From Eggerthellaceae bacterium (GTDB taxonomy: Bacteria; Actinomycetota; Coriobacteriia; Coriobacteriales; Eggerthellaceae): DNA of 64,000 nucleotides. The notes below the pieces were generated by a model. It had not been told where the DNA came from. It worked only from the letters and a program-made list of their open reading frames with translations, and did not search any database. The stretch covers positions 62,001 through 126,000 of the forward strand of contig JALCHN010000001.1 of the NCBI GenBank assembly GCA_022644775.1. The letters run 5' to 3'. How positions within the stretch are numbered: position 1 is the first letter of the stretch; each line of letters begins with the position of its first letter. This document shows, piece by piece, positions 2,615 to 5,353 of the stretch. The position numbers and the translations under genes were made by a program.

Positions 2615-2633
2615 AAAAAGGGCGCCCTCCCGA
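2615..2633 (-). terminator. Distal half of the rpsA terminator, split by the IS
   Basis: On the minus strand this reads TCGGGAGGGCGCCC followed by TTTTT. It is the 3' arm and U-tract of a Rho-independent terminator whose 5' arm lies at 4112-4125 on the other side of the insertion element. Rejoined, the arms form a 14-bp stem with one mismatch and the tetraloop TTCG. Confidence 0.8.
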
Positions 2634-2659
2634 TGAACCGCACCCCAGAAGTTGGAGTC
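2634..2659. repeat. Left terminal inverted repeat of the IS
   Basis: Twenty-six bases beginning TGAACCGCACCC, identical to the reverse complement of 4082-4107. The match ends at base 27. Confidence 0.95.
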
Positions 2660-2679
2660 GATAAATAAGAGTCTAGCGG

Positions 2680-4040
2680 CTATGCCGCGTCCCCGAGGGC
2701 GTGATTCCTGTATTCGGCAGGGGTCATGCCCTCGAGCCCTATTTGGCGGCGTCGCGTGTTCCAGTGGCGGATACATCCGTCGAGGTCCCGCTTGAAGGAT
2801 TCGAAGCTGTCCCATTTCTGGTGGCGGAAGAACTCGTCCTTCAGATGCCCGAAGAAGCCCTCGGTGCAAGCGTTGTCGAGGCGGTTTCCCTTGCGCGACA
2901 TGCTCTGGACGAACCCCGCGCCCGCTATGGTCGCGCAGTACCAGTCGCTCTGGTACTGCCAGCCCATGTCGCTGGTGAGTATGGGGCGGGCGCCCTCCGG
3001 CTTCCTTCCGAGGAGCATGCCCAGCATCTCTCTCTGCTGGGCCATGTCGGGGTGCTCGGATATCGACCAGGCCACGACCTCGTCGGTGCAGAAGTCGAGC
3101 ACGGGCGCCAGGTACGCCTTGCCGAAGCCCAGGTTGAACTCGGTGACGTCGGTGCCCATCTTCTCCCATGGCCGACCGGCCCTGAAGTCGCGTCCCAGCA
3201 GGTTCTCGAAGGTGCGGCCCACCTTGCCCCTGTAGGAGTTGTACCGGTGGTATTCGGTCTCGCGGCGTATGCCGCATCTCAGCCCCATCTCGCGCATCAT
3301 CTTGAGCACGGTCTTGCCGGAGATGCGCACGCCGTCCTCGGCCCTCAGGCACATCATGACCTGCCGGTACCCGCAGCCGTTGGCCGTGCGCCGGAATATC
3401 TCCTCGACCTTGGGCCACAGCTCCCTGCGCGTGGCCCTGGGCTCCCTCCTGAGGTTGTAGTAGTAGGTGGAGCGCGGGATGCCCGACGCCTCCAGCAGGT
3501 CGTCCAGCCCGTACCCCTGCCCCGAAAGCCCGCGGATCACCTGGCACCTGTCCCACGTGCCCGCCCCTCCGCCTCCAGGGCTCGAAGTTTTTTTAAGTAC
3601 GCGACCTCGGCCCTGAGCTTCCGGTTCTCGGCCTCGAGCTCCTGCTCGCGGGTCGGCTCGGGCCCGGGACGGCTCCTCGCCCCCCTCGGCCTGCCCTTCG
3701 GCCTCGGCCTGAGCGCCTCGGGGCCTCCGTCCCTGTACGCCTTCACCCATCTTTGGAGCGCCGACCTGCTCGCTATGCCGTGCTTCGACATCACAGCCTG
3801 GAGGGGCATTCCGTCCTCGAGGTGGTCGCGCACCGCGGCGAGCTTCGTCTCGTAGTCGTATGCCCTGTGCTCGGACCCCATGCCGAAGAGCACCTCGCTT
3901 CCGCACGCCCTGTATGTCTCGACCCATTTTCGGACGGTGCCTTCCGGCATTGCAAGCCTTTTGGCTATGGATGCCCAGCCCAGCCCCCTCTCCATCAGCC
4001 TCGCGGCCGCCCTCCTGACGTCGACGCTGTACTCGGTCAT
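2680..4040 (-). CDS. IS3-family transposase OrfAB (-1 frameshift product, DDE integrase)
   Basis: OrfB continues from OrfA by a -1 shift at 3588-3594, giving a fusion of about 453 residues. The OrfB part has an HTH_21-like segment (SGIPRSTYYYNLRRE, GCGYRQVMMCLR) followed by an rve integrase core. The three acidic residues are visible in GTDVTEF, LTSDMGWQY and ACTEGFFGHLKDE, matching the D-D-35-E pattern of the family. The core ends with the usual WNTRRRQIGLEGMTPAEY. The protein cuts and joins the element ends through a circular intermediate, as known for IS3. Nothing is truncated. Confidence 0.92.
3537..4040 (-). CDS. IS3-family OrfA (helix-turn-helix regulator and transposase N-terminus)
   Basis: The unshifted product is 167 residues. 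Two helix-turn-helix segments are visible, GLGWASIAKRLAMPEGTVRKWV and MPLQAVMSKHGIASRSALQRW, followed by an Arg/Pro-rich linker and a leucine-zipper-like helix, ELEAENRKLRAEVAYLKKL. Two such segments plus the zipper are typical of the IS150 subgroup. OrfA made alone usually binds the ends and dampens transposition. The start taken is the ATG at 4040; a GTG four codons earlier lies too close to GGAG to be preferred. It reads in the same direction as rpsA, so read-through could express it. Confidence 0.88.
   Translation of the reverse strand: MTEYSVDVRRAAARLMERGLGWASIAKRLAMPEGTVRKWVETYRACGSEVLFGMGSEHRAYDYETKLAAVRDHLEDGMPLQAVMSKHGIASRSALQRWVKAYRDGGPEALRPRPKGRPRGARSRPGPEPTREQELEAENRKLRAEVAYLKKLRALEAEGRARGTGAR
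3588..3594 (-). other. Programmed -1 ribosomal frameshift site of the IS
   Basis: A run of seven A residues on the minus strand, read as TTA AAA AAA CTT in the orfA frame. Slipping back one base gives AAA AAA ACT in the orfB frame. This is the standard IS3 way of making OrfAB. Confidence 0.85.
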
Positions 4041-4081
4041 GAAAAACCGCACCTCCAGAAATCGTTGTCCTTTACTTTCTG

Positions 4082-4107
4082 GACTCCAACTTCTGGGGTG
4101 CGGTTCA
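4082..4107. repeat. Right terminal inverted repeat of the IS
   Basis: Perfect 26-base partner of 2634-2659. The direct repeat CGA follows at 4108-4110. Confidence 0.95.
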
Positions 4108-4110
4108 CGA

Positions 4111-4126
4111 AGGAGAGCGCCCTTTC
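4111..4126 (-). terminator. Proximal half of the rpsA terminator, split by the IS
   Basis: On the minus strand this is AAAGGGCGCTCTCC, the 5' arm of the terminator, starting about 22 bases after the rpsA stop. Its partner arm is at 2617-2630, now 1.47 kb away, so the rpsA transcript no longer meets an intact hairpin. Confidence 0.8.
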
Positions 4127-4147: not shown

Positions 4148-5353
4148 CTATTCGGCTTCGCGGGCGGCACGCTCGGCGGCGCGCTTGGCCTGGCGAGCTT
4201 CCTTGGCGGCGAGCTCTTCCGGCGTCGGGTCGGCGACGGCGATCTCGATGCCCAGCTCGTCGGCGGCAGCCTTCATGGACAGGCTGATGCGACGACGCTC
4301 GGTATTGACGTCCATGACCTTGACCTTCACTTCGTCACCGGCATGCACGACCTGAGTCGGGGTGTCGATGTGCTTGTTGGCCATTTCGGAGATGTGCACG
4401 AGGCCTTCGACGTTGGGGCCGAGCTCGACGAACGCACCGAACGGAACGGTCTTGGTGACCTTGCCGTCCTGGATGGAGCCCACCGGGTAGTTCTCGACGA
4501 GCTTGATCCAGGGGTCGGGCGTGGTCTGCTTGAGGCCGAGCGAGATGCGCTCGCGCTGCAGGTCGACGTCGAGCACCTGAACCTCGACTTCCTGGCCGAC
4601 CTTGACGACCTCGGAAGGATGGTTGACGTGGGACCAGGACAGCTCGGAGATGTGCACCAGACCGTCGATGCCGCCGAGGTCGACGAAGGCGCCGAAGTCG
4701 ACGATCGAGGACACGGTGCCCTTCAGGCGCATGCCCTTCGACAGGCGGGAAAGGATTTCCGCACGCTCGTTCTTGCGGCCCTCTTCGAGGAGGACGCGAC
4801 GGGACAGCACCACGTTGTTGCGGTTGCGGTCCATCTCGATGACGCGGGCTTCGAGTTCGGTGCCCAGGTAGGCGTCGAGATCCTTGACGCGGCGCAGGTC
4901 GACGAGCGAGGCAGGCAGGAAGCCGCGGAGGCCGATGTCGAGGATGAGGCCGCCCTTGACGACTTCGATGACCTCGCCGGTGACGGTTTCGCCGGCCTTG
5001 AACTTCTCTTCCACGGAAATCCAGGCACGCTCGTACTCGGCGCGCTTCTTGGAAAGAATCAGACGACCGTCCTTGTCTTCCTTCTGCAGAACGAGGGCTT
5101 CGATCTTGTCGCCCAGGTTCACGATCTCAGAAGGATCGGCATCCTTGCGGATGGACAGCTCGCGAACGGGGATGACGCCCTCGCTCTTGAAGCCGATGTC
5201 GACCAGCACTTCGTCGTGCTCGATCTTCACTACCGTGCCGTCGACCAGATCGCCTTCATCGAACTCGGTCAGCGTGCCATCGATCATCTGGTTCATCTGC
5301 TCGTCGGAGATGTCTTCGAAGTCGATGACGGACGGATTTTTGATTTCGGTCAA
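4148..5353 (-). CDS. rpsA: 30S ribosomal protein S1
   Basis: The 401-residue protein has four S1 RNA-binding domains at about residues 35-105, 120-190, 205-275 and 290-360, with typical segments such as GMRLKGTVSSIVDFGAFVDLGGIDGLVHISELSW. Four domains, not six, is usual for Gram-positive S1 homologues. A charged Ala/Glu/Arg tail ends the protein. S1-type proteins bind mRNA at the 30S platform. AAAGGGG lies upstream of the ATG. The gene has its own leader with a strong palindrome and formerly its own terminator, so it looks monocistronic. The IS insertion leaves the coding region untouched. Confidence 0.95.
   Translation of the reverse strand: MTEIKNPSVIDFEDISDEQMNQMIDGTLTEFDEGDLVDGTVVKIEHDEVLVDIGFKSEGVIPVRELSIRKDADPSEIVNLGDKIEALVLQKEDKDGRLILSKKRAEYERAWISVEEKFKAGETVTGEVIEVVKGGLILDIGLRGFLPASLVDLRRVKDLDAYLGTELEARVIEMDRNRNNVVLSRRVLLEEGRKNERAEILSRLSKGMRLKGTVSSIVDFGAFVDLGGIDGLVHISELSWSHVNHPSEVVKVGQEVEVQVLDVDLQRERISLGLKQTTPDPWIKLVENYPVGSIQDGKVTKTVPFGAFVELGPNVEGLVHISEMANKHIDTPTQVVHAGDEVKVKVMDVNTERRRISLSMKAAADELGIEIAVADPTPEELAAKEARQAKRAAERAAREAE

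Follow-up and report, generated by a model that had tools for sequence, protein, structure and literature searches.

The rpsA terminator is split by an insertion sequence

The window analysed here, a 64,000-nucleotide stretch of contig JALCHN010000001.1 of an Eggerthellaceae bacterium, carries an insertion sequence just downstream of rpsA. The features of the locus are given below by window position; G070 is a congeneric genome used for comparison.

2617 to 2630, minus strand: 3' arm of the rpsA terminator stem, now split (RNA GGAGGGCGCCCUUU), with more U after it at 2615-2616; intact in G070
2631 to 2633: target-site duplication CGA, copy 1, covering three tetraloop bases of the terminator (read from the sequence)
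2634 to 4107, minus strand: IS3-family (IS150-group) insertion sequence of 1474 bp, with perfect 26-bp terminal inverted repeats and a 3-bp duplication
2680 to 3567, minus strand: orfB, DD(35)E catalytic frame (HTH_21, rve, rve_2; NCBIfam transpos_IS3), the DD(35)E spacing taken from the translation
3537 to 4040, minus strand: orfA, 167 aa, with two predicted helix-turn-helix regions (HTH_28 twice, HTH_Tnp_1)
3588 to 3594, minus strand: A7 run in the orfA/orfB overlap, probable -1 frameshift site leading to OrfAB, proposed from the sequence and from IS3-family biology
4044 to 4106, minus strand: left-end hairpin, the terminal repeat paired with a subterminal copy just 5' of orfA (-39.3 kcal/mol, z = -8.9)
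4052 to 4056, minus strand: orfA Shine-Dalgarno GGAGG, placed inside the left-end hairpin by sequence and fold
4108 to 4110: target-site duplication CGA, copy 2 (read from the sequence)
4112 to 4125, minus strand: 5' arm of the rpsA terminator stem, now split (RNA AAAGGGCGCUCUCC); intact in G070
4148 to 5353, minus strand: rpsA (30S ribosomal protein S1), owner of the split terminator, with its stop codon at 4148

The element has the two overlapping frames of the IS3 family, an OrfB with a DD(35)E rve domain, repeats of the form 5'-TG...CA-3' and, in CGA, a duplication within the 3-5 bp range of the family. Its ends consist of TGAACCGCACCCCAGAAGTTGGAGTC in inverted orientation, matching 26/26 at both ends, and the 26-bp inverted repeat begins TGAACCGCACCCC. 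The orfB product scores 252.5 bits against NCBIfam transpos_IS3 (cut-off 160) and also matches Pfam rve, rve_2 and HTH_21. The long OrfA, in which HTH_28 and HTH_23 match in two stretches each, has the two predicted helix-turn-helix regions of the IS150 group. A -1 frameshift at the A7 run would probably yield OrfAB.

A preliminary description of this DNA had marked out positions 2615-4126, that is, the element (2634-4107) plus the hairpin arms. It had placed an IS3-family element exactly in the loop of the rpsA terminator, with both transposase genes reading in the direction of rpsA, and our analysis agrees: the CGA duplication falls inside the UUCG loop, and rpsA and both transposase frames are all on the minus strand. 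The perfect ends, the intact duplication and the open frames also support the recent insertion that it had suggested.

The empty site is an intact terminator hairpin

Joining the flanks with one CGA gives AAAGGGCGCCCTCC-CGAA-GGAGAGCGCCCTTT, with 14 pairs. As had been described, this is a 14-bp stem with a single mismatch, a CGAA/TTCG loop and a U-tract; in the rpsA RNA the lone “mismatch” becomes a G-U pair, and the RNA stem is therefore unbroken. The restored rpsA terminator RNA thus consists of the stem AAAGGGCGCUCUCC/GGAGGGCGCCCUUU with a C(UUCG)G loop, followed by the U-tract. It folds with -28.7 kcal/mol (z = -5.3), and none of 200 shuffles was equally stable. In a mechanical scan of the window no terminator-like site was left at the filled rpsA locus, and the insertion site matched no Rfam family.

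The nearest genome, G070, belongs to the same genus and is 97% identical across rpsA and its 3' flank. At the same place it carries the uninterrupted hairpin CAAAGGGCGCCTTCC-TTCG-GGAGGGCGCCCTTTT, with the same TTCG loop and without insertion, and the stem differences between G070 and the IS-bearing genome preserve pairing. We looked in this relative for arms already separated without the IS, which would speak against loop insertion; the intact hairpin indicates instead that the arms were contiguous before the element arrived. With this empty site, the duplication of the window copy is placed in the loop of a palindromic target.

Related copies occupy the loops of unrelated hairpins

In its own genome the element has a single assembled copy (the assembly has 56 contigs, in which further copies could be hidden), and its OrfB is about 35% diverged from the nearest sampled relatives, so that its preference is deduced from these relatives. 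Relatives with 58-66% OrfB identity are common in the class Coriobacteriia, and in an even sample of the phylum those at E <= 1e-55 were restricted to the order. About 100 loci were collected, ends and duplications were located by one rule, and identical sites were removed. Of the 87 sites kept, 84 had both flanks and 66 of these a duplication of 3-4 bp; the latter are called clean, and since they come from related genomes they are not fully independent.

Pairing was measured by a strict stem score, which counts 10 ungapped stem positions around a 3-10 nt loop containing the insertion point. It replaced an earlier count of the enclosing pairs in the MFE fold of 48 nt, which was too loose for GC-rich DNA. 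A second Coriobacteriia IS3 group, intended as negative control, itself lies in inverted repeats, and control positions and swapped arms were used instead.

The preliminary description had proposed that the empty sites of other copies be folded. Among the 66 clean Coriobacteriia relatives, the duplication overlaps the loop of a predicted hairpin of 8 bp or more in 53, and in 43/66, all among the 53, the centres of hairpin and duplication lie no more than 1.5 nt apart. A strict stem score of at least 9/10 is reached at 36/66 sites compared with 62 of 13,200 control positions (0.47%). The stem signal peaks only at the insertion point and is back at background about 4 nt upstream and about 10-15 nt downstream. 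The empty 48-nt sites have a mean folding energy of -23.6 kcal/mol versus -12.9 kcal/mol for 3960 positions in the same flanks. Examples are CAATAAGCCCGCTAGAACGTTG-IS-TTGTCCGTTCTAGCGGGCTTAA (L129) and CAACAAGGCCCGGCTCCGCCACA-IS-CACAACGGAGCCGGGCCTTGTTG (L127).

When arms were swapped between sites, the fraction with a stem score of at least 8.5 dropped from 64% to 4%. True partners pair far better than swapped arms, which indicates that what is conserved is pairing within each site and not a common palindrome. The arms are unrelated between sites, so the target is not a repeated sequence family such as REP/PU. They are rich in GC, their positional preferences are weak (at most 0.45 bit at any position), and A-rich and T-rich runs lie at fixed distances from them. 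The preference is not absolute, because about one fifth of the clean sites, notably in G374, show no convincing hairpin. Loop-targeting is nevertheless well supported for the group, by the other copies as well as by the empty site, as the preliminary description had suspected.

Some individual copies deserve separate mention. L122-L126 in G374, copies of one sub-branch, are an apparent exception to the loop rule: they are found close to CCTGTCCCC repeats, and their hairpins are weak or off-centre. In G260, G231 and G224, several copies (L159-L162, L164 and L153) sit in one REP-like palindrome family (AAACCACCACAAAGGTGCCTGTCCCCTTTGTGGTGGTTTT), and this sub-branch seems to resemble IS1397 in its use of a repeat. 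The flanks of L166 (G334:C5) form an unbroken palindrome, GCCCCCGGCACTTC-IS-GAAGTGCCGGGGGC, without the direct repeat found at other copies.

Most targets lie at gene ends

Gene orientation was assigned by codon scoring, as longest-open-frame calls misread antisense frames, rpsA included. By these codon-usage calls, flanking genes read toward the site in 69 cases and away from it in 16. Where both flanks were called (n = 29), 18 pairs were convergent, 11 tandem and none divergent. Where a gene reads into the site, the insertion lies a median of 56 nt beyond its stop codon. This position and the lack of divergent pairs suggest that the targets are mostly intrinsic terminators. Relative to the terminator T-tract, the two orientations of the element occur 29:28, and there is no replication-strand bias (27:25); at tandem sites, copies lean towards the direction of the genes (8:3, not significant). 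Random orientation with respect to both T-tract and replication fork is easier to reconcile with a symmetric double-stranded target than with a strand-specific one.

The habit extends beyond Coriobacteriia

Two more distant relatives, on a Bifidobacterium breve megaplasmid (55% OrfB identity) and in the Enterococcus phage Q69 (40% OrfB identity), also lie in the loops of long terminator-type hairpins. Among 25 clean IS150-group copies on viral contigs, a set that includes one Coriobacteriia-type copy, 11 have a score of at least 8.5 versus 1.8% of controls.

In an OrfB tree, which is midpoint-rooted with some long branches and with the type elements of other IS3 groups left out, a 54-row branch that includes IS150 and IS1397 (support 100/100) stands apart from another Coriobacteriia IS3 group, and the OrfB analysed here falls with IS150, not with other IS3 groups. 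IS150, IS1397 and the Enterococcus element belong to the clade that is sister to the Coriobacteriia-Bifidobacterium one. The E. coli IS1397 copies L237, L249 and L250 have their 3-bp duplication in REP hairpin loops.

E. coli IS150 copies (L241, L242, L244, L246 and L236) recur beside hok-family toxin genes on chromosomes and plasmids. These hok-adjacent copies lie at best in irregular hairpins, in a GCCCCG...CGAGGC context.

The second Coriobacteriia IS3 group (ends GGGGGTGCGGAC...GTCCGCACCCCC; OrfB about 38% identical) is found within long inverted repeats, often off-centre and with large loops. It is represented by L206, L209-L211, L213, L214, L221, L222, L227, L228 and L231, and its arm score is 12.2 versus 6.0 for swapped arms (13 copies).

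How might a loop be recognised?

Our preferred explanation, to which we assign a probability of roughly 0.8, is that an IS150-group element inserted recently in the rpsA tetraloop because its machinery selects the loops of GC-rich inverted repeats, mostly intrinsic terminators. Target recognition would depend on strand pairing within the target, as an extruded cruciform or another hairpin form. This is suggested by arms that share no sequence yet are complementary within each site: a protein reading the duplex cannot sense the pairing of unrelated arms, and we infer from the sequence comparison that recognition involves, at one stage or another, a hairpin or cruciform, with the extruded cruciform as a candidate form. 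The IS circle would then be joined across the loop with a stagger of 3-4 bp, so that loop bases are duplicated. The landing site spares coding sequence. A point against this explanation is that the loops of a cruciform are far apart, whereas one transpososome would have to join strands 3 bp apart.

Could the arms be read as sequence after all? Symmetric helix-turn-helix domains of OrfA/OrfAB might recognise a palindromic motif (e.g. GGGGC...GCCCC) in ordinary duplex, as proposed for IS1397/REP, whose specificity has been ascribed to the transposase (PMC1525189). Such reading would agree with GC-rich arms of weak positional preference, with A/T flanks at fixed distances and with the reuse of one repeat family in some genomes (G260). 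We consider it unlikely, because swapped arms pair far worse than true partners and there is no shared palindrome to explain the pairing, and because AT-rich and GC-rich hairpins are both used (L205 versus the Coriobacteriia sites).

Alternatively, what attracts the element may be RNA polymerase as it pauses at terminators or is released there, or else the hairpin of the nascent RNA. Most sites do lie at gene ends and resemble intrinsic terminators; however, the orientation relative to the T-tract is unbiased, and IS1397 copies sit in REP palindromes, not terminators, which leaves coupling to transcription with little chance of being right.

Marginally less probable still is that the pattern reflects selection, with insertions widespread and those between genes near terminators surviving as little harmful. 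The sites are indeed downstream of genes, where the cell would tolerate an insertion, and none of the called gene pairs is divergent. Harmlessness, on the other hand, would not put the duplication inside a 3-9 nt loop; the stem signal is near background within about 8-15 nt, still in the same intergenic region, and an insertion that splits a terminator does, if anything, more harm than one next to it.

Returning to the selection of loops by the machinery of the element, a broader version is that target choice throughout the IS150 group follows DNA secondary structure (extruded hairpins). Intrinsic terminators would then be its main natural target in different phyla, and IS1397/REP an offshoot narrowed by sequence; a further Coriobacteriia IS3 group may share the habit. 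We would put even odds on this generalization.

A hairpin at the left end of the element

The 5' end of the element in the window forms a hairpin of about 20 bp that ends in a U-run. Every Coriobacteriia-clade member that was folded begins with such a hairpin, in which the terminal repeat pairs with a subterminal complement just ahead of the orfA start; the 3' arm contains the Shine-Dalgarno, and a T-rich run usually follows. It is also present in the B. breve element, in that of Enterococcus phage Q69 and in IS1397, while an individual fold of IS150 gave no strong left-end hairpin. The comparison relied on individual folds and on a subset of long-type members, as the two hairpin lengths are not alignable together; within this subset, compensating pair changes occur, for example, at columns 6/60 (C-G to T-A) and 14/51 (A-T, C-G, G-C).

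Insertion sequences are well known to keep the start signals of their transposase hidden in transcripts that enter from outside. The element would shut out host transcription by concealing the orfA ribosome-binding site in the left-end hairpin, and the transposase is probably expressed from a promoter made when the element ends join in the circle. A transcript from the circle junction would lack part of the hairpin, whereas one entering from rpsA would carry all of it, which makes rpsA read-through an unlikely driver. The suggestion of the preliminary description that this read-through could drive transposition, widened here to transposase expression and to selection of this insertion, is compatible with the shared direction of the genes and the lean of tandem sites, and we give it hardly any weight in view of the even T-tract orientation and of a hairpin that sequesters the orfA Shine-Dalgarno and ends in a U-run, as expected of a block to incoming transcription.

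Comparison with known systems

If our explanation is correct, what has been a curiosity of a few REP-seeking elements becomes the target rule of a large and widespread transposon group, which predicts landing at terminator tips and reshaped read-through between neighbouring genes. It would also provide a tractable system for asking whether cruciforms form at terminators in living cells. Two hairpins would be paired, that of the target inviting the element and that at the edge of the element shutting out host transcription. A literature search, with most subscription journals outside its reach, found no report of IS150-group elements targeting terminator loops, and priority is unsure.

Hairpin-loop targeting is not unusual for the IS3 family, contrary to what had initially been supposed: IS1397, ISKpn1 and ISPsy8, all members of it, target REP palindromes. 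For IS1397 and ISKpn1 this has been shown experimentally, and for ISPsy8 genomic evidence gives a strong REP association in Pseudomonas syringae (PMC1525189). The loop targeting described here is thus of a known kind and moderately surprising, the surprise coming from its breadth and its lack of sequence demand. IS1397 and ISKpn1 belong to the same family as the window element, and IS1397, from the adjacent clade, resembles it in its end type (TGAACTGCACCCC...TTCA), in the 3-bp duplication in a hairpin loop and in the left-end hairpin before orfA. They differ in using one repeated family (REP/PU), whereas the stems used by the present clade, in Actinomycetota, are many and unrelated, most of them terminators of genes. 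Further REP-associated IS, ISPsy8 among them, are likewise IS3-family elements but repeat-specific.

IS150, the type element of the group from E. coli, shares the OrfA/OrfB organisation and 40% OrfB identity, and a viral-contig copy with IS150-type ends (L261) lies in a perfect terminator loop. In contrast, the hok-adjacent copies in E. coli occupy at best irregular hairpins, and IS150 has no strong left-end hairpin.

Outside the family, IS1272 targets inverted repeats of unrelated sequence, as the present clade does, and replaces stem-loops (PMC5678879). It has a transposase of another family, and it deletes and replaces the stem-loop without duplication, whereas at rpsA both arms and a 3-bp duplication are present. 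The authors of that study drew a hypothetical pathway “c” in which only the loop is duplicated (PMC5678879), and the loop-only duplication of the present element fits it. Group IIC introns, finally, prefer intrinsic terminators or attC hairpins (PMC7923331) and so share the terminator preference, but they are retroelements that insert beside the stem by reverse splicing, with strand orientation.
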